Shown: piece by piece, positions 23,170 to 59,156 of the stretch | Layout: every line of letters begins with the position of its first letter | How positions within the stretch are numbered: position 1 is the first letter of the stretch | Source of the DNA: Absidia repens | Taxonomy: Eukaryota > Mucoromycota > Mucoromycetes > Mucorales > Cunninghamellaceae | NCBI GenBank assembly: GCA_002105175.1 | Contig: MCGE01000041.1 | Span: 62,001-126,000 of the forward strand | DNA length: 64,000 nucleotides | Direction: 5' to 3' | The notes under the pieces: model-generated | Seen by the model: the letters and a program-made list of their open reading frames with translations, nothing else | Database searches by the model: none | Told to the model about the DNA's origin: nothing | Made by a program: the position numbers and the translations under genes

Positions 23170-23622
23170 GGTGTCCATCTCAGGTATGGCGGGAGGATGT
23201 CAAAATGACCTACATATTTCATTTCCCTTCATTTATATTTACTCCCGTCGCCGACGAGATTATCTCTTACTTTCAGATATCTTATCCATTTATTATTATC
23301 CCTTTATCAATATCACAGAAAGTTTAGTATAAAAACCCACAAAAAGAATTGATTCTTCTTTTTATTTTTTATTCAGTTCTTGTTCGCTTATATTTTTATC
23401 AATAAAATTCAACAGGGCTTTAAACCACCAAAACCTCTTTTATTTTACCTTTATTTCAATCTTGACATGGAAATACTTAATTATCACGAACATTTTCGAA
23501 CTTTGAAGTCTATATTATATTTTAATCAAAATATTCTGGCGCTCACTTACAAATAATAAATAAAACACCACAAAAACACAACACAAATTACGATCCAATA
23601 AACCACAAAATTAGCCGCAACA
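23170..23622 (+). mobile_element. solo LTR or LTR fragment, plus orientation
   Basis: It has the LTR layout seen throughout the window: a TTTAGTATAAAAAC promoter near 23325, an AATAAA near 23401, CTGGCGCTCACTTAC in U5, and the terminal AAAATTAGCCGCAACA ending at 23622. The left end is estimated from a TG at 23170 and is uncertain. No target-site duplication was identified. Confidence 0.6.
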
Positions 23623-23869
23623 ACACAAATTTAAAGGTCCTGTTGAGGAAGATATTTAACAGCTGTTCGGCAAGAAACTGAAGCATATTTTTATTTCTTT
23701 TATGGCTTTTCTTATCACTTTCAATTTTATTTTAATCCAAAACTTCCTTTTAAAAATATTTATAATCTTATTTTTCTTATTTTATTTTATCTTTATATCG
23801 TATATTTTTGAAACGACCAAAATCGATTTCGTCATTTCGCACTTCGGTGGGCAGTGTGAAAAAATCAAT

Positions 23870-24806
23870 TCAGTCTCCGCACACATGACTCTATTTTTTT
23901 TTTTGGGTCCAATTTTTTTTTTCCCTTTCTTTTACTTTCTTTCTTGTTTTTCTCCTCCATGAAAGTCTGAACGATATGGTGGCATAGCTCATTGGGATAC
24001 TGGCAATCTAGGATTAGTGTTAGAACTTGAATTAGGGGCATTTTCAAAAATGCAAAACAAACATCATGGGGAAACCCTTTCGTTTTGGATTAGTGATTTT
24101 CAACCTACATTAGATTGGCCTTCATCTTAGAATAGTGCCATTAGCTTAGGTTAGTGTTAGTTGTCATAGTTTACACTGTAAACATATCTGAATAAACCTG
24201 TTTTGTCTTTTTACCATTCATCTCTTTCATGCCTTTTATTGTCTCGTTGACTGGGAATGAGTAAGCCCGGTGTGCGTATATGTGTGTATTTATATGTAGG
24301 AAGAGCGGTATGTGCTTCTGTAAAAAAAAGTGCACTATAGAATATTTTGCTATCTGTCCCCACTGAATTTCGCAATTGAATGGACTATATTGTAAGGTTA
24401 GTATTGATGCAAATTATTCTGGGGCAGGGCTAAATACTGGTGACTCAATAGGAAAATGAAATTTACAGCGATATTGATCTAGAAATATCAGTGGATCGAT
24501 ATTGCAAAGTCATAGACGTCAAATTTGATAACAATGCTTTTTGTCTGCCAACATAAAAACACACCACTATAGTTTATTTTCCCTCTGCACTTCACACCAT
24601 ATAAAGCAGCAATGGTGCGTATAGTATATGCCTATTAGAGTTTCCTGAAAAAGTGTTGGCCATGATGACAGAAAAGGGGGGAGTAGTGGCGACATTGATA
24701 CAGTGATGCGAGTGGTGGAATGGAAGGATATTCCAAAGTCATAGTTCTTTAGCTTAGACCAAGATTTTAGATAAACTTTTACCCCCCCCCTCTCTCTTTA
24801 ATAGAG
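23870..24806 (+). repeat. near-complete copy of the interspersed hairpin repeat R1 (subfamily I)
   Basis: 937 bp that match 61662-62598 in inverted orientation along the whole length. In order: CAGTCTCCGCACACATGA, a T/pyrimidine tract, the core TTAGAACTTGAATTAGGGGC with a GCATTTTCAAAAATGC hairpin, CATGGGGAAACCCTT, GAATAAA at about 24192, then about 600 bp with no ORF that other, shorter copies lack or retain only partly. It ends in CTCTCTCTTTAATAGA. No terminal repeat or target duplication was established. Confidence 0.75.
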
Positions 24807-24829
24807 GGGCAAGAGGAATACTTATTGTC

Positions 24830-25111
24830 ACCAATCTTTTTTGATTATCAAGTCTATAATTTATTTTCGTTTATTATATTATATTGATTAACTTTTGACT
24901 TTTATAGGATTTACATTATTCTACTTGATATAATTATTTCTTGAAGAAATAGTTCCCCTGAACGGACTTTAAATCTCAAATCAATTTTTTTTTTTCACTT
25001 TGTTATAATGGTTGAACTTAAAAGCCTAAAAAAGTTTCGGTGCTCGCTCTATAAAAAATAAAACCCTACAAAACCAAATTCCAGTTACGACCTAATAACC
25101 AAACCGTAGCA
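24830..25111 (+). mobile_element. LTR 3' fragment (U5), plus orientation
   Basis: It contains CCCCTGAACGGACTTTAAATC, GGTTGAACTTAAAAGCCTAA, GGTGCTCGCTCTATAAAAAA, and the terminal AACCAAACCGTAGCA. The same order is found at 44400-44603 and 41990-42154. The left end is not defined; the U3 part is missing. Confidence 0.6.
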
Positions 25112-25123
25112 CTATCAAACAAA

Positions 25124-26399: not shown

Positions 26400-27512
26400 T
26401 TACGCCTATTTTTCTATTATCCTTTTATTTTTCACTTTAGTTTTTTTCAGTTTTCTCAATTTATCAAATAAAACTTGGTACAAAGGTTTTACACCACCAA
26501 ATTATCTACTGTTTCTATTGGATCATAGAAACCTCCTTTTATTTCTGATTACAAGTCCTTTTTTATTTTTACTATGTATTATGCACTTATTTTTATTGAA
26601 CAAACAAAGGTCAATACTTTTCTTTTTTATTTTATTTTACTTTTACAAGTTTATTTTTTATAAACTTTCTCTACAGTTGGACTTATCTACAAAAGTTCTG
26701 GTGCTCACTACTCTCAATTCTATTTTTGTCCGATTCAGGAACAAGATATTTCAAATTCCGTCCAAGGAACAAATTTCTTTTCAAGCTCTAAACAAGCAAA
26801 AGCTATACTAAAGGATAACTCAAGACATCCTATTCAAACCAGTGTGACGGTTGAACTCAACCTTGAGAATTGTTTGAGATGAAACAAAGATGGTTTACGG
26901 AAGCAAGATGGTTTACGGAAACAAGATGGTTTACGGGAGTAGCGGGGTTTTCGGGTGCACGATAGTCTTTGTTTCGAGCACGATGTCTTGAACTTTAAAA
27001 ATTTTAGTATAAATACCTTGAAAAAAAATATCAAAAAGAAAAAAAATTATCTTTGAACATTTTATCTTTGATCACTTTATATTTTTAAATAAATTTATTA
27101 TAAAGGTTTTTTTTAAACCTCCCAACTTGTTGGCTTCCTATTATTCCACACTTTGGAATACTTTTATTATATCTTTTGACAGCTGAGTCTGAATCTCGCT
27201 TCACTTTATTTTTTTTTGACTTGATCTAAGTCACTACTTATTTTACTGACCTTATTATTTTCATCTTTGAAAATAATACATCCTCACTTGGACTTTCAAG
27301 TTAGTCCTTTATTATATTTAAGCCTTTGAAGCTACAATCGGTTGAACTTAATCCTAAAAAGTTCTGGTGCTCACTCTATAAAAAATAAAAACCTACAAAA
27401 ACAATCTCCAGTTACGACCTAGCAACCAAAATTAGCCGTAACACCAGAAAAACATAAAAAACCTACAAAAACACAATCCAGTTGGACTAAAATAACAAAT
27501 TTAGCCGCAACA
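26400..27512 (+). mobile_element. LTR of type A, interrupted by a type B LTR
   Basis: The left part (about 26400-26841) matches 45740-46153 and 58470-58920: CAAATAAAACTTGGTACAAAGG, ACAAAAGTTCTGGTGCTCAC, then CAAGACATCCTATTC. The right part (27444-27512) is the missing end, finishing AATTTAGCCGCAACA. Between them sits an intact 602-bp LTR flanked by CCAG on both sides, so this copy is the older one. The left boundary is approximate. Confidence 0.65.
26842..27443 (+). mobile_element. solo LTR, type B (602 bp), inserted in a type A LTR
   Basis: It begins TGTGACGGTTGAACTCAACC, contains TTTAGTATAAATACC near 27004 and GTTCTGGTGCTCACTC in U5, and ends TTAGCCGTAACA. The 4-bp target-site duplication CCAG is at 26838-26841 and 27444-27447. 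The same LTR type occurs at 46154-46750 and 47648-48228. The start contains a GGTTGAACTCAACC palindrome. Confidence 0.85.
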
Positions 27513-27520
27513 CTATCTAA

Positions 27521-28382
27521 TGTTGGGTCCAGCATTGAAGACACCGCTGGGGAAATTGCTGCTGACATTTTTGGTTTTAACCAATTAATGGACTGGACCA
27601 TGAATGAAAACTAGTCAATGGAAAATACATTCATACATCTCAAAAAAAAATAGAAAATACATATATACATCCGAAAAAAATTAGAAAATACATTCCATAG
27701 ATGAAAAACACAAAAACAAACCATCTCTATAGATATCAGTTTTTTAGTATAAATAGCCAACTTTTTATTATTATCCTTTTCTTTCTCTTTAGTTTTTCTA
27801 TATACTTTTCTCATTTAACAAATAAAAGTCAGTACAAAGGTTTTTTTTATAACCACCAAATTACCAAGTTATCAAGTTATCAAGTTATTTCTATTTTGCT
27901 ATAGGAATCTTTATTTATTTTATTTCAGAGTCAATTATACTCCTTTTTATTTTTATTGAACCAGCTAAGGTCAATACTTCTACTTTATTTTATTTTATCA
28001 AGTTTTACTTTTTAAAACTTCTTTTATTTCAAGTTGGACTTTATCTACAAAAGTTCTGGTGCTCACTACTTACTATCCAAACTCATATCTGGAACTCATT
28101 ACTCATATTCAAATACACATTTGGTGTAGTACATATCTAGTGCTCTCTCTATAAACAAAAGTCAATTCAGGGACCACTGCAAATCAAATTTCAAATTCCG
28201 TCCAGAGAAAAATAAATCGCTCTTGACTTTCACTAGGAAGAAAAATTAATTTATTACAAGACACATTTGGTGCAAGATACTATTCTATCTATACCAAACT
28301 ATACAAATAACATCAAAAACATCAAGTCTACCATAACATAATTGGTATTCACTTATAACAAAACTTAAAAACAGCCACAACA
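27521..28382 (+). repeat. 5' LTR of the intact element
   Basis: 862 bp. U3 starts TGTTGGGTCC and its first 94 bases also encode the last residues of the accessory ORF when present as the 3' copy. The promoter TATAAATA is at 27748-27755 and AATAAA at 27821-27826, which puts a short R region between them. U5 contains GTTCTGGTGCTCACTACTTA. It ends CAGCCACAACA. Confidence 0.95.
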
Positions 28383-28386
28383 TATT

Positions 28387-28404
28387 TGGTGCTCACTACA
28401 GGGG
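28387..28404 (+). promoter_or_regulatory. putative primer-binding site
   Basis: TGGTGCTCACTACAGGGG starts four bases after the 5' LTR. TGG is the complement of a tRNA CCA end, as expected for a primer-binding site. I could not match the rest to a tRNA from memory; it does not fit the tRNA-Leu or tRNA-Arg genes of this window. The same GGTGCTCACT string recurs in the U5 of nearly every LTR here. Confidence 0.45.
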
Positions 28405-28775
28405 AATCAAAAAAAGAAATCATTTGAAATCAGAAAAAGAAATTATTTGAGATCAAAGAAAGAAATTTTATTTGGAATCAAAACAAGAAATTATTTGGAA
28501 TCAAAACAAGAAATTATTTGGAATCAAAAAAAGAAATCATTTGAAATCAGAAAAAGAAATTATTTGAGATCAAAGAAAGAAATTTTATTTGGAATCAAAA
28601 CAAGAAATTATTTGGAATCAAAACAAGAAATTATTTGGAATCAAAACAAGAAATTAATTGAAATCAAAAAAAAATATTTGGACTCAATCAGAAATCAAAA
28701 AAAAAAAAAAATCTGAAATCAAAAATCTGAAATCTCAAAATCAAAAATCAAAAATCAAAAACATTATAAACTGAA
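28405..28775 (+). repeat. tandem repeat leader upstream of gag
   Basis: A-rich tandem array with a unit near 24 bp of the type GAAATTATTTGGAATCAAAA. It is organised in at least two larger blocks: the segment from about 28413 recurs from about 28525. The last part degenerates into AATCAAAAATC repeats. A frame is open through part of it (28447-28716) only because the unit lacks stops; I do not call it a gene. Confidence 0.8.
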
Positions 28776-28797
28776 AATAATCAAGAATCAATCAAAC

Positions 28798-29880
28798 ATG
28801 GCTGAAGAACATACTGTGTTGGCAACATCATACGAGCAAAGCCTCAAAGGACTCAAACCTAATATTGCTACCTTCTCTGCTAAGGAAGGCGAAGATTTCC
28901 GCAAATTCAAAAAATTACTGGAGAACTACCTCTCTCTGACAAACGTCACAAATGAAGACCGAAAGCTTATTATTCTAAATTCCCTTCTATATGGAGAAGC
29001 GGAATCATTCATGGAAGACTGGATAGAAACATCTGATCCCGTAACTTATATTGGAGCCATGAATGCTTTGGAAAAACAATATGTCACTACCGAATTACTT
29101 CAATCATATGAATTCGCTTACAATGACATGACACAAGGTGTAGATGAAAGACCGCAAACTTATTATTCAAGATTAAGAGCTGCGGCAAAGCTAGCTGAAA
29201 ACCCCGATCCAAACGTATTATTAAATCGTTTTAGAACTGGATTATTACCTCCAATCCGAGCTCACTGCCTAGCATTTGGCGCTACAAAAATGGAAGATTG
29301 GAAAAAACATGCAGGAGACTGGTGGAAGGCTTATAGATCTGAAAATATGGATAAAAACCAAAACATCACAAAAAAAATCGGCACTCAAAAGTCAAAATTA
29401 GCTGACTTCCTGCATAATGCACCAATGGTACAGCCTACTAGCTTAAATGTCATGGATATAACCAACCAAGATGAAGATGAAATGGATCAAAACACATTCA
29501 TGGAAAAATTAGCCAAAATGGTGGCCATACAAATCAGTCAAAATAATTCTGGAAATGACACAGAAGAAAAAAGGCCTAAGAAACCTAGTAAGTCACAAGA
29601 AATAAATGATACTAACGATCTTAAGGAATCGATTAGGGAAGTAGTACGTCAAGAAATGAACCGATCTCAAGGTTATAATCAAAACCGTTATCGTGGAAAT
29701 AACTACAACCGAAATTATGATCAAAATAATGGCAATCGGCAATATGACAATCGTCGCCAACCAGAATACCGACCTCGTGAATATGGACAACGAAATCAAT
29801 TTAATGAACTTCAAACCCCGTATCAACAACAAAATCAACCTGGGGCACAACAGTCAAAAAACTTCAACAGCCAATTGTAA
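28798..29880 (+). CDS. gag: Gag of the gypsy-type element
   Basis: 360 residues, the structural protein that would form the virus-like particle. Residues about 20-190 resemble the retrotransposon gag domain: FRKFKKLLENYLSLTN, ILNSLLYGEAESFMEDWI, LEKQYVT, and YYSRLRAAAKLAENP. There is no CCHC zinc knuckle. Instead the C terminus (about 285-350) is rich in Asn, Arg, Tyr and Gln with repeated NRNY/RGNNY patterns, which could bind RNA. The first ATG after the tandem-repeat leader was used. The ORF ends inside the loop of a predicted frameshift hairpin, so part of translation is expected to continue into the protease frame. Confidence 0.88.
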   Translation: MAEEHTVLATSYEQSLKGLKPNIATFSAKEGEDFRKFKKLLENYLSLTNVTNEDRKLIILNSLLYGEAESFMEDWIETSDPVTYIGAMNALEKQYVTTELLQSYEFAYNDMTQGVDERPQTYYSRLRAAAKLAENPDPNVLLNRFRTGLLPPIRAHCLAFGATKMEDWKKHAGDWWKAYRSENMDKNQNITKKIGTQKSKLADFLHNAPMVQPTSLNVMDITNQDEDEMDQNTFMEKLAKMVAIQISQNNSGNDTEEKRPKKPSKSQEINDTNDLKESIREVVRQEMNRSQGYNQNRYRGNNYNRNYDQNNGNRQYDNRRQPEYRPREYGQRNQFNELQTPYQQQNQPGAQQSKNFNSQL

Positions 29881-29897
29881 ATGATGGTCAATTGGCT
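29856..29897 (+). promoter_or_regulatory. -1 ribosomal frameshift signal between gag and pol
   Basis: The slippery heptamer A AAA AAC (29856-29862) is in the gag register (codons TCA AAA AAC). Six bases later a perfect 9-bp stem follows: AGCCAATTG (29869-29877) pairs with CAATTGGCT (29889-29897). The 11-nt loop carries the gag stop codon TAA (29878-29880). After a -1 slip the frame is open through to 30686. Heptamer, spacer and stem agree with the canonical simple -1 frameshift signal. Confidence 0.8.
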
Positions 29898-30686
29898 CAT
29901 GAACATCAAAAAACCATCAACAATAAAAATAATAATCAGAAACGTGATGATTTAAACACCTTATTAATGGACGATGATTTAGACAGTCGTGATCTTTACG
30001 CTGCGACAAGATCAGATAGGCCACCTGAAGTTAAATTTCACCCCTATCGACATGAAAAACAAAAATCAAAAAATAAAAAGGAAAAACAAGCTATCATCCA
30101 CCAACAAGACCAACCAAGCATGGACATTGAAAAAGAAAATTTAAATGAAGAAATCCATGAAACCCCGACTGAAAAATTAATCACCCAAAACATTGCTCCT
30201 GAAATTAAAAAGTCGACAGAAATAAAAATCGACAAAAATATTTCAAAAACAAGTCAACCAAAGAAAAATGTCAGAAAATACTCACCTCCAAATTTTAATT
30301 ATGATATTGTGCAAGACGTTTTCAAACAAAAAGCAAATATAGAAGTTGGCGAATTATTAAAAATGGTCACACCCTTGCGAACAAAATTAACAAAAGCTTG
30401 CAGAAAGCAAAGATATAATAGAATACCGCTTGAAACCATACAAGAAAACACAGTGATGAATACTATGGAAGAAACTGATGTGGTAACCACTGCCGTATAT
30501 GCTGAATTCCAAGTAGGCGATCGAAAAGTAAAAGGACTAGTCGATTGTGGCGCTTCAAGATCGTGTATGTCAAGAACTATGATGAAAGCTTTAAATCTAG
30601 AAATCGATGCACCTTCAAATAGTGTATTTACTTTGGGAAATGGAAGTAAACAACCTACCCTGGAATGGTACAAGACGTTCCAGTAA
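29862..30686 (+). CDS. protease-region ORF (pol 5' part), entered by -1 frameshift
   Basis: The frame has no ATG near its start and is most simply reached by -1 frameshifting at 29856-29862. About 270 residues: a long Lys/Glu/Gln-rich linker (KSKNKKEKQAIIHQQ), then an aspartic-protease half with VKGLVDCGASRSCMS, where DCGA is the variant of the D-S/T-G-A active site, and SVFTLGNGSKQP. The second half of the protease fold (FILGNNWL) lies in another frame, downstream. The ORF stops at 30684-30686, 22 nt past the start of the RT ORF. No canonical slippery site is seen at this second junction, so it may be a disabling single-base deletion. Confidence 0.75.
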   Translation, partial: LQQPIVNDGQLAHEHQKTINNKNNNQKRDDLNTLLMDDDLDSRDLYAATRSDRPPEVKFHPYRHEKQKSKNKKEKQAIIHQQDQPSMDIEKENLNEEIHETPTEKLITQNIAPEIKKSTEIKIDKNISKTSQPKKNVRKYSPPNFNYDIVQDVFKQKANIEVGELLKMVTPLRTKLTKACRKQRYNRIPLETIQENTVMNTMEETDVVTTAVYAEFQVGDRKVKGLVDCGASRSCMSRTMMKALNLEIDAPSNSVFTLGNGSKQPTLEWYKTFQ

Positions 30687-32872
30687 ATATTGGCAATGGA
30701 ATAACAATACCATCTAATATCGAAGTTATACCAAATTGTCCAGCACAATTTATTTTGGGCAACAACTGGTTGAATCATGCACAAGCAATTATTGATTTCT
30801 CCACTGGTTATTTAAAACTCAGATATAAGCGACAGCGTCACAAAATACCGATCACTTTTATTAAGGCCACTGATAAGCAAGTTGTACCCATGAAAGTCAA
30901 TCACATAAATTATAAAACAAATGAAGAAGAAGAAAATTGGTCTGAAGATGATTCTGAGGAATCCGAAATAACAGACGATGAAACAGAAGAAGAAGAATGG
31001 GAACATGACGAAAAATCAGACCTGGAATCTGAAGAAGATTTATATAATATGGAAAGCCATGAGCAAAATATAGGGGTAAGAGAAAATCAAAAAAATCAGT
31101 CACTAACAATTTTTACAGAAAACGATGGACTGGTTATACCACCCTACACAGAGTGTCAAATTAATATCAACGCTCACAAACATGAAGCAAGCTACTGTTA
31201 TCAACCACTGCAAACAAAAAAATACAGCAATCCTATAAGTGATGACAGCACAATGAGCTTGACAAATCAAACAGATGAAAATATGATTATACCATCCAAT
31301 CAAATCATTGGCGATTTTTATCAACAACCAGCAACCGTCACCAATAATGAAATAATTGAATACACAGCTTACAAATTAAATGTTTCTAACTCCGTTCTGG
31401 AACATAAATCAATTTTTGATGACAATGACAATAATGAAATCACACTGGATCCAAATATTATATCAAAATTACAAATGGGCGATATATCTGCTGAACATAA
31501 AAGAAAATTCTTCAAACTAATATATCACTTCCAAGACATATTCGATTGGAATAATGATAAAATGGGATTAACCACTTTGGCAGAACATGAAATCGTACTT
31601 GAAAAAGAAATCACCCCTATAAGACACAGACCATATCGCATAAGCCCCGAAGAATCGACTCATCTCAAAAAAGAATTGGACAAGCTATGTGAATTGGGAA
31701 TTATAAAACCTTCAAATACACCATATACTTCACCTATAATTTTAGTTAAGAAAAAAAATGGTGAATATCGCATGGTAGTGGACTATCGGAAATTGAATCA
31801 ACAAACCAGAGACGATCCATATCCTTTGCCAAGAATAGACGACCTAATAGATGAACTAGGCGATTCACGAATTTTTTCGGCATTAGACTTAAGATCTGGA
31901 TTTCACCAAGTGCCAATGAAAGAAAATAGTAAACACTTAACTGGATTCACAACAAAGTTTGGTGTATATGAATATATTACATTACCGATGGGACTAAAAG
32001 GATCACCAGCATGTTTCCAACGATTAATCGACGTATGCTATAGTGAATTATTACATAAATGTCTTGTTGCATTTATTGACGATCTAAATGTACACTCAAA
32101 AACCATGGATCAACACATATTGGATCTCGAAAAATTATTTTGGCACACTCGCAGAGGCGGATTATTATTTAATGTGGAAAAATGTACCTTTTTCAGGCAG
32201 GAATTGAAATTTTTAGGATACATCATTACAAGCGATGGAATAAAAACAGACGACGAAAAAATTAAAAAAGTTAGAGACTTTCCAATACCGACAACAATCA
32301 AGCAAGTAAGAGGATTTATTGGACTGGCTTCCTATTATCGACGATTCATAAAGGACTTCGCAAAAATAGCACGACCGCTACATAATCAAACAAAAGCAGA
32401 AAGAAGAAATTGGGGAAAAGAAGAAACCGAAGCTTTTGAAAAATTAAAAGAAATGCTTACTACCGCCCCTATCTTGAAAAGACCGAACTTTGAAAAAGAA
32501 TTTTTCGTACACTGCGATGGAAGCAAATTAGGAATAGGTGCTATATTGTGTCAACATGACGACGATGGCAAGGAACACCCTATTATTTTTACTAGTAGAG
32601 GACTACGACCGGCAGAAAAGAATTATGGAGCAAGCAAACTGGAGTGCCTCGCATTGGTATTCGCTGTACAACAATTACGACCTTATTTATTGGGACATAA
32701 ATTTACTGTAATAACAGATCATCAACCCCTGAAATGGATCATTGAATCTCCGAAAATCACTGGCATAGTGGCAAGATGGGTACAATATCTAACCGATTTC
32801 AACTTTACATTAAAATACAAGTCCGGCAAATTACATCAAGCTGTTGATTTTATGAGTAGACTTGGCTACTAA
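30665..32872 (+). CDS. pol: reverse transcriptase-RNase H (with the second half of protease)
   Basis: 735 residues from the ATG at 30665. The first 60 residues carry the end of a retropepsin-like domain (PAQFILGNNWLNHAQAIID). An acidic linker with EEE/DDE runs follows. Reverse transcriptase spans about 310-500, with RMVVDYRKLN, SALDLRSGFHQVP, LPMGLKGSPACFQR and the catalytic AFIDDL. RNase H follows with HCDGSKLGIGAIL, KLECLAL and ITDHQPLKW, which hold the expected acidic residues. The ORF ends TAA at 32870-32872. The frame then stays open in register through the A-rich spacer into the integrase ORF, so only this one stop separates the two. It may also be translated as a gag-pol fusion. Confidence 0.9.
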   Translation: MVQDVPVNIGNGITIPSNIEVIPNCPAQFILGNNWLNHAQAIIDFSTGYLKLRYKRQRHKIPITFIKATDKQVVPMKVNHINYKTNEEEENWSEDDSEESEITDDETEEEEWEHDEKSDLESEEDLYNMESHEQNIGVRENQKNQSLTIFTENDGLVIPPYTECQININAHKHEASYCYQPLQTKKYSNPISDDSTMSLTNQTDENMIIPSNQIIGDFYQQPATVTNNEIIEYTAYKLNVSNSVLEHKSIFDDNDNNEITLDPNIISKLQMGDISAEHKRKFFKLIYHFQDIFDWNNDKMGLTTLAEHEIVLEKEITPIRHRPYRISPEESTHLKKELDKLCELGIIKPSNTPYTSPIILVKKKNGEYRMVVDYRKLNQQTRDDPYPLPRIDDLIDELGDSRIFSALDLRSGFHQVPMKENSKHLTGFTTKFGVYEYITLPMGLKGSPACFQRLIDVCYSELLHKCLVAFIDDLNVHSKTMDQHILDLEKLFWHTRRGGLLFNVEKCTFFRQELKFLGYIITSDGIKTDDEKIKKVRDFPIPTTIKQVRGFIGLASYYRRFIKDFAKIARPLHNQTKAERRNWGKEETEAFEKLKEMLTTAPILKRPNFEKEFFVHCDGSKLGIGAILCQHDDDGKEHPIIFTSRGLRPAEKNYGASKLECLALVFAVQQLRPYLLGHKFTVITDHQPLKWIIESPKITGIVARWVQYLTDFNFTLKYKSGKLHQAVDFMSRLGY

Positions 32873-32947
32873 AATCACATAAAACATATATCCAATAACA
32901 TATATTTAGTGCTAAAAGAAGAATATATATATATATATTTGGTGCTG

Positions 32948-32988
<41 letters not shown>

Positions 32989-33097
32989 TTTCAAAAAAAA
33001 ATATTTGGTGCTGAAAAAAAAAAAAAAGAGGCACATTCAAAATCCGACACACAAATCAATTACCCAAATTAAATCAACAAAGCAGAATACAACAATC
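32873..33097 (+). other. A-rich spacer between RT and integrase ORFs
   Basis: 225 bp with a run of about 39 A (near 32947-32985) and a second run near 33015. Each is preceded by the string TTTGGTGCTGAAAA, and a related TTTAGTGCTAAAAG lies at 32908. It stays open in the RT frame, encoding mainly Lys. It could be a translated linker after stop read-through, or an A-rich leader for internal initiation of the integrase. Confidence 0.5.
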
Positions 33098-34420
33098 ATG
33101 GAAGAAAACAGAATCACATTACTAAAAGAATACTTAACCACGTTAAAGGTGCCACAAAGCGCTACAAAGAAAGACAAGAACTATTTGGCACACCACGCAA
33201 GTAAATATATTTTACAAGAAGAAAAGTTATTTTTCTACAATATACACCAACAAACTTTACGGCAAGTTTTGACTCAAGAAGAAGCTACTGAAGTAATGCA
33301 TATGAATCACCAACATCCATTAGGAGGACATATGGGATATCACAATACATTATTCAAGATAACTAACAAGTATTATTGGCCAGCAATGGCAAAAGACGTA
33401 CAAAGTTATGTTAAAAAATGTCAACGTTGCCAAACTACTGGTCCAAAGCCCCTGAATGAATTTCTAAACCCTATTCCGGTCAAATCTAAACCTTTTCATC
33501 AATGGGCAATTGATGTGAAACATGTACCGACATCTAAAAATGGATATAGATACATTGTCGCAGCAATCGACTATCTCACCAAATGGGTGGAAGCAAAAGC
33601 ATTAAAATATCAAACGACAGCGGAAATTGCATTATTTATTTACGACATGATAACCCGATTTGGTACAATGCACATTTTAATCACCGATAATGGAAAACCT
33701 ATGGTGAGTAAACTGATCAAATCAGTTTGTTTTCATTACAACATACACCATAAAACCATTACAGTTGGAAATTCACAAGCAAATGGACTAATAGAACGAC
33801 TAAATTCGACACTTGGATCGATTTTGAAAAAAATTACAACAAAAGAAAAACCAGTATGGGATGAATATTTACCAGCTGCGTTGTTTGCATACCGAACGAT
33901 AAAACAGTCATCAACAGGATACTCTCCGTTTTACCTTACATATGGCATAGAAGCACGAACACCTTACGACAACATGATCGACAAACCGTTAAAAATAAAT
34001 TCAGCTTCATTTCAAAATCAATGGATCTCGCGTTCAAAAAAAGAAATGCTTATTTTGGAAAAGATACGAGAAGACGCTGCAGAAATGATTAAGAAATCAC
34101 AAGAAAACCAAAAGAAAGCTGTTGACAAAAAAGTAATGGCCGTACAACGACAATGGAAACCACCATTTAATTTGGGCGACATAGTTACATTATTTACAGG
34201 AATTAAACCTAACTCATGGTCTGGAAAGATATCAGACAACTGGGAAGGTTTGTATATTATTCATCAAGTACACAAGAAAGGCGTATACACCATAAAGGAA
34301 CACAAAACCGATAATCCTCAATTAAAAGTCATGCATGGAAACCGGTTAAAGCTATATCACATCCCTGATGTATTTTATAATGATCAATTAATGAAATCCT
34401 GGAGTACACACCTTTACTGA
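33098..34420 (+). CDS. int: integrase of the gypsy-type element
   Basis: 440 residues if translation starts at the ATG at 33098; the frame is open upstream through the poly-A spacer. The N-terminal zinc-binding domain is seen as HMNHQHPLGGHMGYHNT...CQRCQ (HHCC). The catalytic core has Asp in WAIDVKHVP, Asp in LITDNGKP and Glu in NGLIERLNS, the DDE triad. SSTGYSPFYLTYG follows. The C-terminal domain has FNLGDIVTLF and VMHGNRLKLYH, typical of gypsy integrases. There is no chromodomain. Having its own ORF after a stop and an A-rich spacer is unusual for this group. Confidence 0.9.
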   Translation: MEENRITLLKEYLTTLKVPQSATKKDKNYLAHHASKYILQEEKLFFYNIHQQTLRQVLTQEEATEVMHMNHQHPLGGHMGYHNTLFKITNKYYWPAMAKDVQSYVKKCQRCQTTGPKPLNEFLNPIPVKSKPFHQWAIDVKHVPTSKNGYRYIVAAIDYLTKWVEAKALKYQTTAEIALFIYDMITRFGTMHILITDNGKPMVSKLIKSVCFHYNIHHKTITVGNSQANGLIERLNSTLGSILKKITTKEKPVWDEYLPAALFAYRTIKQSSTGYSPFYLTYGIEARTPYDNMIDKPLKINSASFQNQWISRSKKEMLILEKIREDAAEMIKKSQENQKKAVDKKVMAVQRQWKPPFNLGDIVTLFTGIKPNSWSGKISDNWEGLYIIHQVHKKGVYTIKEHKTDNPQLKVMHGNRLKLYHIPDVFYNDQLMKSWSTHLY

Positions 34421-34422
34421 TG

Positions 34423-34453
<31 letters not shown>
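34423..34453 (+). repeat. poly-A tract after the integrase ORF
   Basis: About 30 consecutive A directly downstream of the integrase stop codon, followed by T6 and a TATA-like box. Together with the A tract before integrase, it frames the integrase ORF between two poly-A blocks. Confidence 0.85.
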
Positions 34454-34457
<4 letters not shown>

Positions 34458-34468
34458 TTATAAATAGG
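34454..34468 (+). promoter_or_regulatory. TATA-like box upstream of the accessory ORF
   Basis: TTTTTTATAAATAGG lies about 90 bp before the accessory ORF start. It resembles the LTR promoter box TTTTTAGTATAAATAG. It may drive a separate short transcript ending in the 3' LTR; this is inference. Confidence 0.4.
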
Positions 34469-34549
34469 AACAAGAAAAAATACAGAAAGAATTATAATTT
34501 TCACAATTAACATACAATTTTTATTAACTCAACATCATATTACAACAAC

Positions 34550-35005
34550 ATGGACGCAACCTGGACTCTTTTCACCGAAAACCGCAACTACTACCAAAAG
34601 CAAGCCATCCAAGCTTATAAGAATTACGCTGATGAAACCTTCTTGGAAAGACAGCATTTTTACAAAAAACAAAATATTGTGGATACCATTTTGATTCCTA
34701 GTCTGTTAAACCTGGTGCAACTGGGCGAGACTCAGCCCCAAAACATTTTGGAACAAGAAATTTATACAAGTAAACGGAAGGAAGTGGTGCGTTCGCTTTT
34801 AAAAGCAAGAGGAGATAAGCGAAGCCTTACGGCCATCTTGAAGAAATTGGAGGTTGTGGACCCATGGACAAAACTTAACACTGTGGGAACAGTTTCCGCT
34901 GGGGAGGCGCATGTTGGGTCCAGCATTGAAGACACCGCTGGGGAAATTGCTGCTGACATTTTTGGTTTTAACCAATTAATGGACTGGGCCATGAATGAAA
35001 ACTAG
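34550..35005 (+). CDS. accessory ORF overlapping the 3' LTR, unknown function
   Basis: 151 residues. I do not recognise the family. The first 90 residues are mixed charged with aromatic residues (TLFTENRNYYQKQAIQAYKN, ERQHFYKKQNIVDTILIPSL), then KRKEVVRSLLKARGDKRSLT, probably helical. No signal peptide or transmembrane segment. The last 31 residues are encoded inside the 3' LTR (from 34912) and end ADIFGFNQLMDWAMNEN. Related LTRs in this window start with sequences that encode similar tails ending in WAM/WAT/WGL plus acidic residues. The presumed polypurine tract GGGGAGG (about 34901-34907) lies within the ORF just before the LTR. An additional gene overlapping the LTR is reminiscent in layout only of retroviral accessory genes. 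Confidence 0.7.
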   Translation: MDATWTLFTENRNYYQKQAIQAYKNYADETFLERQHFYKKQNIVDTILIPSLLNLVQLGETQPQNILEQEIYTSKRKEVVRSLLKARGDKRSLTAILKKLEVVDPWTKLNTVGTVSAGEAHVGSSIEDTAGEIAADIFGFNQLMDWAMNEN

Positions 35006-35773
35006 TCAATGGAAAATACATTCATACATCTCAAAAAAAAATAGAAAATACATATATACATCCGAAAAAAATTAGAAAATACATTCCATAGATGAAAAAC
35101 ACAAAAACAAACCATCTCTATAGATATCAGTTTTTTAGTATAAATAGCCAACTTTTTATTATTATCCTTTTCTTTCTCTTTAGTTTTTCTATATACTTTT
35201 CTCATTTAACAAATAAAAGTCAGTACAAAGGTTTTTTTTATAACCACCAAATTACCAAGTTATCAAGTTATCAAGTTATTTCTATTTTGCTATAGGAATC
35301 TTTATTTATTTTATTTCAGAGTCAATTATACTCCTTTTTATTTTTATTGAACCAGCTAAGGTCAATACTTCTACTTTATTTTATTTTATCAAGTTTTACT
35401 TTTTAAAACTTCTTTTATTTCAAGTTGGACTTTATCTACAAAAGTTCTGGTGCTCACTACTTACTATCCAAACTCATATCTGGAACTCATTACTCATATT
35501 CAAATACACATTTGGTGTAGTACATATCTAGTGCTCTCTCTATAAACAAAAGTCAATTCAGGGACCACTGCAAATCAAATTTCAAATTCCGTCCAGAGAA
35601 AAATAAATCGCTCTTGACTTTCACTAGGAAGAAAAATTAATTTATTACAAGACACATTTGGTGCAAGATACTATTCTATCTATACCAAACTATACAAATA
35701 ACATCAAAAACATCAAGTCTACCATAACATAATTGGTATTCACTTATAACAAAACTTAAAAACAGCCACAACA
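34912..35773 (+). repeat. 3' LTR of the intact element
   Basis: 862 bp, same length as the 5' LTR and apparently differing at one position. TATAAATA is at 35139-35146. Its first 94 bases complete the accessory ORF. It is followed by the target duplication CTAA and by a probable tail of an older LTR (ACGTAAAAACAGTCATAACA, ending at about 35807). Confidence 0.95.
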
Positions 35774-35850
35774 CTAACTAATACAAAACGTAAAAACAGT
35801 CATAACAAAACACAGCCCGCAAAAAGACTGGTTTGAGCAAAAGTAAGAGA

Positions 35851-35924
35851 TGAGACTACCAGGGGTCGAACCTGGAATCTCCTGATTCGTAGTCAGACGC
35901 CTTGTCCAATTGGGCCATAGTCCC
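35851..35924 (-). tRNA. tRNA-Arg (ACG)
   Basis: The minus strand folds as a cloverleaf. Acceptor GGGACTA pairs with TAGTCTC, the D arm contains GGCCCAATTGGAC, the anticodon loop is CTACGAA (anticodon ACG), and the T arm is CCAGGTTCGACCCCTGG. Discriminator A at 35851. No intron. A short T4 terminator follows on the minus strand (complement of 35841-35844). The 3' LTR of the intact element ends 78 bp beyond the tRNA 3' end. Confidence 0.92.
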
Positions 35925-44603: not shown

Positions 44604-45458
44604 TGTTGTGGAAACCACCAATATCACCAATGCCACCTATGCGACCAACACCACTAACACCACCAACAACAATGTCGCCACCAACGCCAACAACACCACT
44701 GCCGCCAATTACCCTATTAACACAGCAAATATCATCGCCACTGACATATTTAATGTCAATCAAGTCTTAGAGTGGGGTTTAAGTGACGAATGACCTCTCT
44801 CATCAACGAAGCGTCATCACCACTCGCGCCAAAAACAACAAAAGAAACAAAACCAACAAAAAATATAGAAGTCATTACCACACGAAACCAACAAACATTA
44901 GTATAAATACCCCACTTTTTATTATTATCCTTTTCTTTTCTCTTTAGTTTTTTTATTATCACTTTTCTCAATTATCAAATAAAAGTTCAGTACAAAAGGT
45001 TTTTTTTATAACCACCAAGTTATCAAGTTATCAAGTTATTTCTATTTTGCTATACAAATCTTTATTTATTTTATTTTCAGAGTCAGATATACTCTTTTTA
45101 TTTTTATTGAACCAGCTAAGGTCAATACTTCTACTTTATTTTATTTTATCAAGTTTTCTTTTAAAAACTTCTTTTATTTCAAGTTGGACTTTATCTACAA
45201 AAGTTCTGGTGCTCGCTACTTACTATCCAAAATCATATCTGGAACTCACTACTCATTATCAAATACATATTTGGTGTGATACATATCTGGTGCTCTCTCT
45301 ATAAACAAAAGTCAATTCAGGGACCACAGAAAATCAAATTTCAAATTCCGTCCAGAGAGAAAAAAAATCGCTCTTGACCCTCACTAAGAAAAGCCTTTCC
45401 ACTAGGAAGAAAAATTAACCTATTACAAAACATATTTTGGTGCAAGATACTATTCTAG
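44604..45458 (+). mobile_element. LTR of type C (left part), plus orientation
   Basis: It starts TGTTGTGGAAACC and is clearly related to the LTR of the intact element: TTAGTATAAATACCCC near 44899, AACCAGCTAAGGTCAATACT, GTTCTGGTGCTCGCTACTTA, and ATTTGGTG motifs. Its first 190 bases encode a Thr/Asn-rich stretch ending IATDIFNVNQVLEWGLSDE and stop (44793), aligning with the tail of the accessory ORF. At 45458 it is split by a type A LTR with a CTAG duplication; a short remainder continues at 46779-46806. Confidence 0.75.
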
Positions 45459-46778
45459 TGTAAATGTTACCTGGGCAAACCTATTGGGAATCGCTGGTCT
45501 GCAAAATTGGGCCATGGGAGCTTAAGTTTTTGTTGATTGTTACATTTATCCCTTCATATTTTTTACCCCAATGTCATATTTTTACCTGCGTATATTTTAC
45601 CCCGACGTCTTTTTTCAGTCCATTTTTAAATTTTATTTTTATATATATATCCCAATATTTTTCAATTTTCTTTTTCTTTAGTTAATTTTTATTATATTAT
45701 TATCTCAACCCTTTTTATATAAAATTCAGTACAAAGGTTTTTAACCACCAAATCACTGTCTTATTTTTATTTTGTTTCTATCGTCTATATAGAAACTTTC
45801 TTTTATTTTTTTGTGACTACAAGTCCTCTTTTTTATCTTTACTGTGTGTTATACACTTAATTTTATTGAACCAACAAAGGTCAATACTTTTCCTTTTTAT
45901 TTTATTTTACTCTTTCAAGTTTATTTTTATAAACTTTCTCTACAGTTGGACTTTATCTACAAAAGTTCTGGTGCTCACTACTATCAATTCTATTTTTGTC
46001 CGATTCAGGAACAAGATATTTCAAATTCCGCCCAAGGAACAAATTTATTTTCAAGCTCTAAACTAGCAAAAGCTATACTAAAGGATAATTCAAGACATCC
46101 TATTCAACCCAGAAAAACATAAAAAACCTACAAAAACACAATCCAGTTGGACTTGTGACGGTTGACCTCAACCTTGAGAATTGTTCGCCTGGGCAATGAA
46201 TGAAGGAGATTGAAGTGCTGAAACAAATGATGAAGTTTACAACCTGACACTCAGTACCAGATGTTCTAAACAAGACGTTCAGTACCAGATGTTTCGCATA
46301 AAATAAATTTTAGTATAAATACCTCAGAAAAACATTGAAAAAGAAAAAGAAAATTATCTTTGAACATTTTATCTTTGATCACTTTATATTTTTTAATAAA
46401 TTCATTACAAAGGTTTTTTTAAACCTCCCAACTTGTTGGCTTCCTTTTATTCCACACTTTGGAATACTTTTATTATATATTTTTGACAGCTGAGTCTGAA
46501 TCTCGCTTCACTTTATTTTTTTTGACTTGATTTAAGTCACTACTTATTTTATTGAACTTATTATTTTCATCTTTGGAAATAATACATCCTCACTTGGACT
46601 TTCAAGTTTAGTCCTATATTATCTTTAAGCCTTTGAAGCTACAATCGGTTGAACTTAATCCTAAAAAGTTCTGGTGCTCACTCTATAAAAAATAAAAACC
46701 TACAAAAACAATTTCCAGTTACGACCTAGCAACCAAAATTAGCCGCAACAGACTAAAATCACAAATTTAGCCGCAACA
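45459..46778 (+). mobile_element. LTR of type A, itself interrupted by a type B LTR
   Basis: It starts TGTAAATGTTACCTGGG and ends AATTTAGCCGCAACA; target duplication CTAG at 45455-45458 and 46779-46782. Its first bases encode ANLLGIAGLQNWAMGA and a stop, again like the accessory tail. The U5 region has GTTCTGGTGCTCACTACTAT. It is split at 46153/46751 by the younger type B LTR. Confidence 0.85.
46154..46750 (+). mobile_element. solo LTR, type B (597 bp), inserted in a type A LTR
   Basis: It starts TGTGACGGTTGACCTCAACC and ends TTAGCCGCAACA; target duplication GACT at 46150-46153 and 46751-46754. TTTAGTATAAATACC lies near 46309. It closely resembles 26842-27443 and 47648-48228. One base out of frame near its start, a WAMNEGD-stop tail can still be read. 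Confidence 0.88.
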
Positions 46779-46808: not shown

Positions 46809-48250
46809 TGCACTATCCATTTCCAATACTACTGTTGACGCCGCCTTGGATTTGTCCAATTTGTTTGGCTTGCGGGAGTTGATGGCGTGGGCTACAAACG
46901 AATAAGAACTGCCGCAGCCCCACTTCCTTCGTCGATACCAACTTCTCCGCCCTCCTATATCACAATTTTACTCCGCCACCCTAAAAATCCATCGACAACT
47001 ATCCCACTCCGCTCCTTTCAAAACAGTATAAAAGGGCCAACTTTTTTGTTACAAATTATTTTCTCTTTAGTTTTTTCAGTTTTTACTTTTCTCAATAGTC
47101 AAATAAAAGTTTACTCTAAAGTTTTTTTATAAAAACAATCAAGTTATCAAGTCATTTCTATTTTGCTATAGAAATCTTTATTTATTTTATTTTCAGAGTC
47201 AGCTATACTCTTTTTTATTTTTATTGAACCGGTTAAGGTCAATACTTTTTACTTTATTTTATTTTATCAAGTTTTCTTTTAAAAAACTTCTTTTATTTCA
47301 AGTTGGACTTTATCTACAAAGGTTCTGGTGCTCACTACTTACTACCAATAACATATCTGGTACCTTCTACTTATATCAAATAATTTATTTGGATATTTGG
47401 TACTCTCTATTTTTCAAGACTACAAGTCAAGTAAACAAAAAAGGACATTTCAAATTCCGATTCAGGGGAAAAATAAATTTTGGTCCTCGCTGCAAATCCG
47501 TTCAAGCAAGAACAAGAATACACTTATACACTATCCATTTGGTGTAAAATACAACTTGAACTTAACTAAAAGGTTATCTTCATACCGTTACGGTTCATAT
47601 TATCTCAACAAACCATACATATTTGGTACATCACTTTACTCATTAACTGTGACGGTTGAACTCAACCTTGAGAATTGTTTGAGATGAAACAAAAATGGTT
47701 TACGGAAACAAAATGGTTTACGGGAGTAGCGGGGTTTTCGGGTGCACGATAGTCTTTGTTTCGAGCACGATGTCTTGAACTTTAAAAATTTTAGTATAAA
47801 TACCTTGAAAAAAATATCAAAAAGAAAAAAAAAATTTATCTTTGAACATATTATCTTTGATCACTTTATATTTTTTAATAAATTCATTATAAAGGTTTTT
47901 TTAAACCTCCCAACTTGTTGGCTTCCTTTTATTCCACACTTTGGAATATTTTTATTATATATTTTTGACAGCTGAGTCTGAATCTCGCTTTTTATTTTTT
48001 TTGACTTGATCTAAGTCACTACTTATTTTATTGACCTTATTATTTTCATCTTTGAAAATAATACATCCTCACTTGGACTTTCAAGTTAGTCCTTTATTAT
48101 CTTTAAGCCTTTGAAGCTACATTCGGTTGAACTTAATCCTAAAAAGTTCTGGTGCTCACTCTATAAAAAATAAAAACCTACAAAAACAATCTCCAGTTAC
48201 GACCTAACAACCAAAATTAGCCGTAACATAACTCAAAAATACCCGTAACA
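46809..48250 (+). mobile_element. LTR of type D, interrupted by a type B LTR
   Basis: It starts TGCACTATCCATTTCC. The first 96 bases encode AALDLSNLFGLRELMAWATNE and a stop, the best match to the accessory tail. CAGTATAAAAGGGCC (about 47025) is the promoter and GTTCTGGTGCTCACTAC lies in U5. It resumes after the type B insert at 48229 and ends ACCCGTAACA at 48250, 64 bp from the discriminator base of tRNA-Leu. The target duplication of this LTR was not resolved. Confidence 0.7.
47648..48228 (+). mobile_element. solo LTR, type B (581 bp), inserted in the type D LTR
   Basis: It starts TGTGACGGTTGAACTCAACC and ends TTAGCCGTAACA; target duplication TAAC at 47644-47647 and 48229-48232. It is very similar to the type B copy at 26842, including the KQDGLR-like repeat GGTTTACGG(A/G)A near its start. 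Confidence 0.88.
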
Positions 48251-48314
48251 CTACACCCTAATATCATAGGAAGGATAAAAGATTGCCCGTATATCAAAAG
48301 AGATAAAAAGATAA

Positions 48315-48398
48315 TGGTGACTGGGAGATTCGAACTCCCGCCTCAGATTGAGACCGCAACTTGAGTGCGGCGCCTTAGACCAACTCGGCCAAATCACC
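48315..48398 (-). tRNA. tRNA-Leu (CAA), copy 1
   Basis: Minus strand: acceptor GGTGATT pairs with AGTCACC. D arm TGGCCGAGTTGGTCTAAGGC, anticodon stem CCGCA/TGCGG with loop CTCAAGT (anticodon CAA), long variable arm (TCTCAATCTGAG), T arm GGGAGTTCGAATCTCCC. Discriminator A. No intron. A T5 terminator follows (complement of 48305-48309). The LTR stack ends 64-86 bp beyond its 3' end. Confidence 0.93.
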
Positions 48399-56399: not shown

Positions 56400-57480
56400 G
56401 CTTACTTTTGTCTTTGTTTGTCTATAGTTTGTATTTACATGTGAACCCCCCCCCCCATGCCGCCCCCTCCCTGCTCTCCTCCTTCAATGAAATATGCTCC
56501 ATTAGTTTCTCATGATTTGTGCAGTAGATTTTTTTTTACTACCAACACCAGTTTTGAGTATTGGTCACCTTAATCTACGTATTATAAATACAATAAAAAA
56601 TTATTACTCTAAAAAAGATATGGGTAATTTTTATTGCTAGTTACTGATGTGCAAGTCTTTATTTGTTGAAGAAATGTGTTGGTTGATATTATTATGGGAA
56701 CTAGGATTGACTATGATATATATAGCTGTGAAGGAGAGAAATAGGACTTGTTTGTTAAGGAAACTGGCTACTGGTAGATTTTGTCATATACTGTTTGAGC
56801 TTTGCTTTTGGTGTAGTTAATATACTTGTCCTCAATACTTTATTTTTAACTGAATTCTCAGTGACTCTCACTCAACTATGAAAGAAAAAACCCCTTGTCC
56901 CCTATAAAAAATGAGTAAAGTATACCAAAGTCTGTAAACAATAAACAGCAACTATATTTGCATAGGGTACAATATTTCTTCAAAATGACTAGCCATTGCA
57001 TATCATCATAGGGGGAGGGGAGTTAAAAGAAAAGTATACGGCGACGGTTACATTGACGAGATAGCAGGTCACTTGATATAATTGATCGACCTGAATCAGC
57101 CAACATTTGATATCAAGCGACTTAAACACCGTCAGTCAATATGTAAGCTCTAGGAAGAAAACTATATATATGGGGTGAATTAAAAAGCAGACGTTTGATA
57201 GGACACCCAGAAAACTGGTACAATTGCGGCATTACCCTCTATCCGATGTGTCAAAAAATGGTTAATAAAAAAGTTATATTTATTGAAGCACTACCGTCAA
57301 CTCTATTTCAAATGGGTAATGGTAAGAACGGACCTATTGTGCACAGTATGAGAGAGAATAAAGCAAATGGATCTATTATGTGGGACAAGGCAGGAGGATC
57401 ATTTATTTGTAGCATGTGCGAAGGATCCCATATAATAAGTATGAGAAAGATCCTAATGGAACATTTTCATTGAGATATGT
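56400..57480. other. intergenic region without recognisable genes
   Basis: About 1 kb. A C10 run lies at 56446-56455 and AATAAA signals near 56590. From 57200 the sequence resembles the downstream part of minus-strand R1 copies (ATCTATTATG..., AACATTTTCATTGA), leading into the copy that follows. Confidence 0.4.
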
Positions 57481-58022
57481 AAAAAGAGACATATTTTATT
57501 CATATGTTGATACGAACTATGATAAACTAATCCTAACTAAACTAATGAAGGCTCCAAAACACCAACTAATGGTGCCTTCAGTTCCTAGATCAAAAATGAA
57601 AGGGTTTCCCCATGATGTTTGTTTTGCATTTTTGAAAATGCCCCTAATTCAAGTTCTAACACTAATCCTAGATTGCCAGTATTCCAATGAGCTATGCCAC
57701 CATATCATTCAGGCTTTCATGAAGGAAAAAAAAAAAGAAAAGAAAAAAAGGAAAAGAGAGGTAAAAAAAATTGGAGCCAAAAAAAAAAAAATAGAAATCA
57801 TGTATGCGGAGTCTGAATCGACCTTTTTCACACCTAAACACTACCCTATATTTCTTTTTTCAACACACAGAAAAATGCGCGCTGAGCACGACGGTTGGGC
57901 CCCAAGGGGCTGCCCACCAAAGTGCGAAATGGCGGAGGCTATAATCTTATCCCATCAAAATCCACGCTTTAATAAAAAAACTGTGATACCCAATAAATCG
58001 AAAGATTCCCAAAAGCTCTAGC
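57480..58022 (-). repeat. interspersed hairpin repeat R1, minus strand, long copy
   Basis: The complement has the GGGCAGCCCCTTGGGGCCC palindrome (near 57900), a pyrimidine tract with GGCTCCAATTTTTT, TTAGAACTTGAATTAGGGGC, the GCATTTTCAAAAATGC hairpin, CATGGGGAAACCCTTTCATT and GAATAAA near 57497. A long ORF across it (57416-58021) follows from lack of stops and shows no domain. Confidence 0.7.
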
Positions 58023-58039
58023 GGAGCACCAGACCGTTT

Positions 58040-59011
58040 ATTTTTTATAAAAAGTTCTGGTGCTCACTACTTATAATCAAATATAAATTTGGTACTCTAT
58101 ATATTTTCAAGACTACAGTCAAGTAAAAAAAGGACAATTACAAATTCCGATTCAGGTGAAAAATATTTTTTGATCCTCACTACAAATCCGTTCAAATAAG
58201 AACAGGAATACTCTTATACACTATACATCTGGTGTAAAATATAACTGAAGCTTTAACAAAAAGGTTGAATCAACACTGTCGAGGATCGGCCTCTGGCCAC
58301 CACCTGACCTCTAACCATCTCTGACCTTGAACAACATCATGCTCAAATTAAAGTTCGATCTCGAAACACTCTGTCGATTTTGACAATGGTGAACTCGACC
58401 GATCCCTATACTTTGACCACTTCTTGCTTTCAACCACCCTTTATTTTTTTAGTATAAATACCCCACCTTTTTCTTCAACAATTTCAAAATCTTTAGTTTT
58501 TTTCAGTTTTCTCATATTATCAAATAAAACTTAGTACAAAGGTTATTATACCACCAAATTATCTACTGTTTCTATTGGATCATAGAAACCTCCTTTTATT
58601 TTTGACTACAAGTCCTCTTTTTTATTTTATTTTTACTGTGTGTTATACACTATATTTTTATTGAACCAACAAAGGTCAATACTTTTCCTTTTTATTTTAT
58701 TTTACTTTTCCAAGTTTATTTTTTATAAACTTTCTCTACAGTTGGACTTTATCTACAAAAGTTCTGGTGCTCACTACTATCAATTCTATTTTTGTCCGAT
58801 TCAGGAACAAGATATTTCAAATTCCGCCCAAGGAACAAATTTATTTTCAAGCTCTAAACAAGCAAAAGCCATACTAAAGGATAACTCAAGACATCCTATT
58901 CAACCCAGCAAAACATAAAAAACCTACAAAAACACAATCCAGTTGGACTAAAATCACAAATTTAGCCGCAACACAAGCTACACACCCAAATTAGCCGTGA
59001 CAACCGTAACA
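58040..59011 (+). mobile_element. LTR of type D (U5 remnant), interrupted by a type A LTR
   Basis: The left part (58045-58276) has GTTCTGGTGCTCACTACTTA, AATTTGGTACTC and CATCTGGTGTAAAATATAAC, matching 47300-47640. After the type A insert, short LTR tails AAATTAGCCGTGACA (ending 59002) and ACCGTAACA (ending about 59011) remain, 60-70 bp from tRNA-Leu copy 2. The U3 part is lost. Confidence 0.6.
58277..58973 (+). mobile_element. solo LTR, type A, plus orientation
   Basis: It starts TGTCGAGGATCGGCC, like 25124. TTTAGTATAAATACCCC lies at about 58448 and AATAAA near 58522, with GTTCTGGTGCTCACTACTAT in U5; it ends AATTTAGCCGCAACA at 58973. The target duplication is ambiguous (ACAC on both sides if the LTR ends three bases earlier). 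Confidence 0.75.
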
Positions 59012-59072
59012 CCTTCTTTACTTCTAAAAAAAAGCGCCGTAAAAGATTAACCGGTGTAAGTTGAAGCAAAAG

Positions 59073-59156
59073 TGGTGACTGGGAGATTCGAACTCCCGCC
59101 TCAGATTGAGACCGCAACTTGAGTGCGGCGCCTTAGACCAACTCGGCCAAATCACC
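59073..59156 (-). tRNA. tRNA-Leu (CAA), copy 2
   Basis: Identical over its length to the gene at 48315-48398: anticodon CAA, long variable arm, discriminator A, no intron. A T4 terminator follows (complement of 59068-59071). The 5' flank also shows resemblance (AATTGAAAAGTA versus AACTGAAAAGTA). An LTR stack again lies on its 3' side. Confidence 0.93.

Follow-up and report, generated by a model that had tools for sequence, protein, structure and literature searches.

Retrotransposons that integrate beside genes transcribed by RNA polymerase III (pol III) have been described in fungi and in dictyostelids, and form the background for a group of long terminal repeat (LTR) elements of the Ty3/gypsy type from the genome of Absidia repens (Mucorales). 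The analysis started from a stretch of 64 000 bp, called the window below, which is C36:62001–126000 of an assembly with 79 contigs (47.37 Mb) and carries three stacks of LTRs at the 3′ flanks of tRNA genes. The comparison with known systems draws on portions of the cited papers. Ty3 of Saccharomyces cerevisiae uses pol III genes as targets, like the elements here (PMC8632968); unlike them, it integrates on the upstream side, close to the start site, and does so in either orientation when TFIIIC is involved (PMC5911963). TFIIIC has been called essential for the directionality of Ty3, yet qualitatively similar events were obtained without it in vitro (PMC8632968). Tj1 of Schizosaccharomyces japonicus shares with the main A. 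repens lineage a fixed orientation, with the 3′ end facing the pol III gene, but is found 5–11 bp upstream of tRNA genes and in the direction of the gene, whereas the main lineage lies downstream and against it; in the part of the paper cited, its authors were aware of no further wild-type LTR element whose orientation is fixed (PMC4600332).

For the downstream side, a 2018 review, in the portion used here, presents Skipper-2 as the first case of an LTR element inserted downstream of a tRNA gene, and confines such insertion to dictyostelids (PMC5911963). Skipper-2, a dictyostelid Ty3/gypsy chromovirus, lies 7–136 bp downstream of tRNA genes across four species (PMC5006619) and is compared here on the side of insertion, not on orientation. 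Its host is an amoeba and not a fungus, its chromodomain is diverged, and a polypyrimidine stretch takes the place of the primer site in Skipper elements (PMC5006619), whereas a Pfam scan (E up to 5) gave no chromodomain in the window integrase and the primer site here is an 18-nt match to tRNA-Ile. TRE3 of Dictyostelium is likewise inserted downstream of tRNA genes (40–150 bp) in one orientation, but it is a non-LTR element with another integration chemistry and runs in the direction of the gene, whereas the A. repens lineage runs against it (PMC5911963). Ty3/gypsy elements of Rhizopus oryzae frequently co-localise with tRNA genes (PMC2699053); Rhizopus integrases are ∼50 % identical to the window integrase, and these may be the same elements as here. 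Searches of the open-licence literature gave no fungal LTR element that is both downstream and orientation-locked. The sequence-only reading of the window had called a gypsy lineage locked to the 3′ side in a fixed orientation unusual; this holds for the combination, not for the single traits, which Skipper-2, Tj1 and the Rhizopus elements have.

We consider it likely that the Ty3/gypsy lineage of the window integrates actively in the 3′ flanks of pol III genes (tRNA and U6), with U5 toward the gene. The three tRNA genes beside the stacks, all called on the minus strand, are tRNA-Arg(ACG) at 35851–35924 (stack 1), tRNA-Leu(CAA) at 48315–48398 (stack 2) and tRNA-Leu(CAA) at 59073–59156 (stack 3; start at 59072 according to ARAGORN). 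The right ends of the LTRs, as read from the sequence, are at 35773 with an older tail to 35807 in stack 1, at 48228 and 48250 in stack 2, and at 58973, 59002 and 59011 in stack 3. The sequence-only reading had described these three stacks with the same tRNA genes and LTR ends; its distance of about 45–90 bp from the tRNA 3′ end was measured as 43–98 bp. It had also taken every LTR that could be oriented as plus, and seven LTR queries indeed gave plus-strand matches exclusively (E < 1e-8).

LTRs of three related types, A, B and C, were distinguished, all on the plus strand. To the left of a full-length type A element (27521–35773), a type C LTR (26435–26842) is interrupted by a nested type B solo LTR with the duplication CCAG (26843–27443) and ends at 27444–27512; the stretch 35774–35807, between the type A element and tRNA-Arg, contains the older LTR tail. 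Stack 2 comprises a type A LTR fragment (44898–45457), the left part of a type C LTR (45719–46153) with a type B solo LTR inside it (46154–46750; duplication GACT, read from the sequence), and an older type A-like LTR region (46831–47647, left boundary approximate). The last is split by a type B solo LTR with the duplication TAAC (47648–48228), which ends 86 bp from tRNA-Leu, and its last 22 bp form the tail at 48229–48250 on the tRNA side. In stack 3, a type C LTR (58277–58973), with no 4-bp duplication at its flanks, ends 98 bp from tRNA-Leu and is followed by the two older tails (58974–59011). The pieces nearest the tRNA gene are thus, in all three stacks, older LTR tails that were split or left outside by a younger insertion, contrary to the earlier proposal that younger copies land nearest. 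Each stack as a whole is growing near its tRNA end.

Genome-wide LTR searches were carried out with one LTR query for each type, 40 candidates being scored for each, and the resulting counts of LTRs, clusters and tRNA genes are lower bounds. The three queries gave at least 90, at least 65 and at least 82 rows; altogether at least 237 rows were placed into at least 92 clusters. These were compared with a list of 129 known pol III genes from fetched flanks and searches, nine of which are tRNA-Ile places defined by a 16-nt pattern alone; tRNA and U6 genes were covered, and 5S rRNA stood outside the genome-wide search. The LTRs were on a uniform strand in all 92 clusters. A known pol III gene was located within 1.5 kb of 62 clusters, a different gene for each of the 62; it always lay on the U5 side and on the opposite strand, and the count for the U3 side at the same distance was 0 of 92. 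The nearest known gene lay within 500 bp in 56 clusters, with no arrangement other than U5 side and opposite strand, and within 9 kb this arrangement applied to 69 clusters (66 when the pattern-only places are excluded). For 38 clusters outside the window the analysis covered 2 kb on either side, and for 50 the U5 flank alone; among the 38, the gene was on the U5 side in 25 and on the U3 side in none. Complete LTR ends within 450 bp of a gene, available from 49 clusters, had a median distance of 105 bp, and 43 of the 49 were at 19–170 bp. This concentration about 20–170 bp downstream in a single orientation agrees with the genome-wide pattern that the sequence-only reading had predicted for active targeting.

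The same arrangement was obtained with other starting points. The tRNA gene search was limited to the best 63 of 1766 candidates, 14 of which lay within 3 kb of an LTR cluster. The first 18 by score among the other 49 were inspected for LTR matches (E up to 1e-4): an LTR was present within 400 bp downstream at 12, always on the opposite strand, and within 250 bp upstream at 0 of 18. Starting from reverse transcriptase (RT), 52 of 65 rows were counted (seven rows of a second lineage and six fragments were left out). A known pol III gene was found within 5 kb for 22 of the 52, as 22 different genes, all of them on the 3′ side and on the opposite strand; without the pattern-only tRNA-Ile places the count was 18 of 52, with 18 of 18 in this arrangement. 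Three of the four U6 genes above the Rfam cut-off have a downstream LTR of this group, arranged in the same way, at 27 bp (C1), at 35 bp (C34) and at 110 bp with a tail at 19 bp (C67). That U6 genes are also hit supports a pol III reading. The best match to the B box consensus at each U6 gene had two or three mismatches, the same as in shuffled sequence; insertion at U6 genes that have no B box above chance points indirectly to a target, other than TFIIIC at the B box, that they share with tRNA genes. At all four U6 genes (loci L010, L087, L099 and L100) a TATA-like box is preceded by the element CCACAAYT, a possible upstream promoter element of these genes.

Target duplications were scored on complete LTRs with readable flanks, the type A flanks being read by eye. 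A 4-bp duplication was present for six of six type A events (CTAA, CTAC, CTAG, CTAT, CAGC and CCAG), seven of eight type B rows and none (0 of 1) of the single type C row. The 4-bp duplications of the earlier description were recovered, with CTAA around 27521–35773 and TAAC around the copy that ends at 48228.

Targeting could instead occur in both orientations, with reverse copies harming the tRNA gene and being lost by selection. Formally this could be so, a point that the Tj1 authors make about their own element in the portion cited (PMC4600332), and in the observed orientation T-runs of the LTR U5 on the strand of the gene could serve as back-up pol III terminators. A run of at least four T was, however, found within 30 bp in 56 of 57 gene flanks, and within 12 bp in 55, whereas the nearest LTR tail is 14 bp away; since the T-runs of the genes are nearer than the LTR tails, a back-up terminator seems little needed. 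Neither the 62 resolved clusters nor the 12 LTR-bearing tRNA genes of the sample showed a reverse copy. Type A copies that are 99–100 % identical to that of the window are found beside five different pol III genes, where they follow the same rule of side and orientation; the newest copies are thus already in one orientation only, which favours targeting over slow selection, and we regard the loss of reverse copies as unlikely. The related and parallel LTRs within one stack would also be expected if stacks grew when cDNA recombined homologously with resident LTRs at tRNA genes and so copied the old orientation; but 13 of 15 testable insertions or rows carry a 4-bp duplication of their own, several of them inside an LTR of another type, and the orientation rule holds at 62 different genes, so that this mode of growth is largely refuted by the separate duplications and has very little probability left. 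Insertions at pol III gene flanks are tolerated in other genomes (PMC5911963, in the part cited), but mere survival in harmless sites near tRNA genes is equally improbable: it leaves unexplained the side, the distance range, the orientation and the absence of LTR types A–C from 18 sampled upstream flanks, and is refuted because the two flanks are asymmetric. Chance association was rejected by arithmetic, about one cluster being expected (if the 47.4 Mb are assumed to hold a few hundred tRNA genes) where 62 of 92 were observed.

Several points, in addition to the possible loss of reverse copies, weigh against active integration at pol III genes. The list of 129 genes is incomplete and was partly built by inspecting LTR neighbourhoods, and the 50 clusters mentioned above were examined at the U5 flank only. 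Thirty of the 92 clusters have no known gene within 1.5 kb. In 25 of these the U5 side runs into another LTR or, past the primer site, into the interior of an element; the other five (C11:495801, C33:62724, C35:338995, C38:277353 and C62:14432) lack both a pol III gene and any clear further LTR over the 1.1–2 kb read past the U5 end, one of them having a single weak 38-nt LTR match there. For one cluster the nearest known gene within 9 kb is on the U3 side, 6 kb off. Six of the 18 sampled tRNA genes have no detectable LTR, and the U6 gene on C23 has none within 400 bp downstream.

Active integration beside pol III genes, for which position, side, orientation, duplications, nesting and the use of both U6 and tRNA genes were observed, may proceed as follows. 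The DNA copy would enter mostly 20–170 bp beyond the point where the mature RNA ends, its U5 end facing the gene, and the integrase-type insertion would leave a 4-bp duplication. Stacks would arise because one target zone is used repeatedly, new copies landing at a similar distance and often splitting the U5 end of an earlier copy. The integration complex may dock on a feature common to tRNA and U6 genes, and the most likely tether would be pol III itself or TFIIIB, with TFIIIC on the B box a less likely one. Direction could be fixed by unlike cDNA ends, set apart by a 4–6-nt spacer and the tRNA-Ile primer at U5 or by a cofactor such as the product of the open reading frame (ORF) called ORF5 below. 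Active targeting through pol III factors or the transcript end had been suggested from the sequence of the window; the LTR, tRNA and RT surveys and the U6 genes bear out the targeting, and the mechanism stays a proposal.

The type A element at 27521–35773, delimited by its LTRs, flanks and ORFs, lies on the plus strand between copies of CTAA. Its two 862-bp LTRs (27521–28382 and 34912–35773) mismatch at 1 of 862 positions, and the 3′ LTR ends 77 bp short of the 3′ end of tRNA-Arg. The primer binding site (28387–28404) begins 4 nt (TATT) past the 5′ LTR. A gag-like ORF of 360 aa (28798–29880), assigned by position with a Pfam PNMA match under the cut-off, is followed by ORFs for an aspartic protease (29892–30686; PF13975, PF13650), RT–RNase H (30665–32872; PF00078, PF17917, PF17919) and integrase (33098–34420; PF17921, PF00665). 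The domain order of protease, RT, RNase H and integrase is that of Ty3/gypsy elements (Metaviridae), for which the TG..CA ends of the LTRs, the short target duplication and the tRNA primer site are also expected. By their rank in a search of solved structures, the best chains for the window RT were 4ol8 (E 1.4e-85) and 7q5b, Ty3-G Gag-Pol (E 5e-85), which places Ty3 among the closest solved relatives; 4ol8, listed only as RT/RNase H, is probably the RT of Ty3. Among 120 of the 121 integrase relatives listed, the strong named ones are all from Mucorales (the Rhizopus proteins already mentioned; Absidia glauca, 58 % identical over 79 % of the query; Mucor ambiguus; Lichtheimia), and plant and algal relatives rank lower. 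Protease and RT form two overlapping ORFs in the window (264 and 735 aa; overlap 30665–30686). Since a copy on C38, with an RT 100 % identical to that of the window, has a single open frame of 1021 aa here, the window copy is probably frameshifted between protease and RT. Long A-runs occur at about 32946–32985, before the integrase ORF, and at 34424–34454, before ORF5, and gag is preceded by an A-rich repeat leader; these might serve the separate expression of the ORFs.

ORF5 (34550–35005, 151 aa) directly follows integrase in element order, and its last ∼30 codons lie within the 3′ LTR. Relatives of 139–144 aa, 30–34 % identical to it, are open in five further copies (L002, L005, L030, L031 and L040), whose integrase pieces are mostly about 72–78 % identical. 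A single-sequence search of 5.8 billion proteins gave nothing at E up to 0.001, and a profile search gave six proteins, all named Absidia repens. The AlphaFold2 model from seven sequences is mostly helical, with a mean predicted local distance difference test (pLDDT) value of 68, a predicted template modelling (pTM) score of 0.59 and pLDDT below 50 for residues 110–141. Similarity to alphaRep-type repeat proteins in a profile search of solved structures was treated as noise, as no stretch passed alone apart from one weak case. It is a guess that ORF5 takes part in targeting or marks one of the cDNA ends.

Eighteen nucleotides of the primer site are complementary to the 3′ end of a tRNA-Ile(AAU) gene plus CCA. 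The site stands behind a spacer of 4–6 nt (TATT to TATTTT) and was present in 19 of 137 sequences (136 loci and the window). The pattern of the tRNA-Ile end matched 10 places, and the one that was fetched is a tRNA-Ile gene. The match of 18 out of 18 nt in the window speaks for a tRNA primer in this lineage. The motif TGGTGCTCACT is repeated 12 more times in the window, each time inside an LTR or LTR fragment (for example at 26699, 28057, 35448, 48150 and 58765), and a short copy of the primer-site motif is located well inside the LTRs of all three types. On C78:284424–305584, type B LTRs are spaced about 5 kb apart, which suggests that elements are arrayed in tandem there, with the array ending close to tRNA-Arg(TCT). 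Outside the LTR stacks, the window contains inverted dispersed repeats of a different kind, 23913–24090 with 57589–57766 and 24466–24617 with 61848–61999, which are 88–91 % complementary.

The second gypsy lineage is represented by seven RT rows, 38–40 % identical to the window RT (loci on C10, C14, C17, C18, C23 and C26 and a copy on C2; upstream flanks L105, L115, L052 and L136). Its direction was taken from the RT gene, not from LTRs. Three copies have a known tRNA gene 2.2–2.3 kb past RT, on the 3′ side and on the same strand. From these a tRNA gene was predicted at four further places, and three of the four hold one, on the right strand and at 2.1–2.3 kb; at the predicted place for the C2 copy, the 501 bp fetched contained none. 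Overall, six of the seven copies lie upstream of a tRNA gene on the same strand with the 3′ end toward the gene, and the lineage resembles Tj1 in place and direction. The upstream flanks of 78 pol III genes contain repeats at a fixed end distance, each kind ending in the same way at the gene; an all-against-all comparison gave 115 same-strand and 25 opposite-strand pairs, the latter mostly from the inward-folding part of one kind. This kind, five copies with the end TTTTTTCCGCTGTG, ends 54–55 bp before tRNA genes (L107, L023, L052, L069 and L086) and is self-complementary in part. Two other kinds end about 10 bp before the gene, with ten and three copies; the ten-copy kind (L012, L045, L047, L048, L055, L058, L067, L089, L103 and L113) seems to bring its own TATA-like sequence.

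With due reserve, and at less than even probability, we suggest a ‘U5-first’ rule, by which gypsy lineages that are only distantly related, the downstream and the upstream one of this fungus, each enter with the U5 (3′) end closest to the gene. If both are U5-first, the two DNA ends of an LTR element are not equivalent at integration. The one-way downstream insertions at 62 different pol III genes, together with the upstream second lineage, constitute many natural replicates for asking how the two cDNA ends differ and to which component of the pol III machinery the elements are tethered. They also provide a fungal parallel to Dictyostelium, where several elements share the flanks of tRNA genes, and the elements offer a natural handle on the choice of target and direction.

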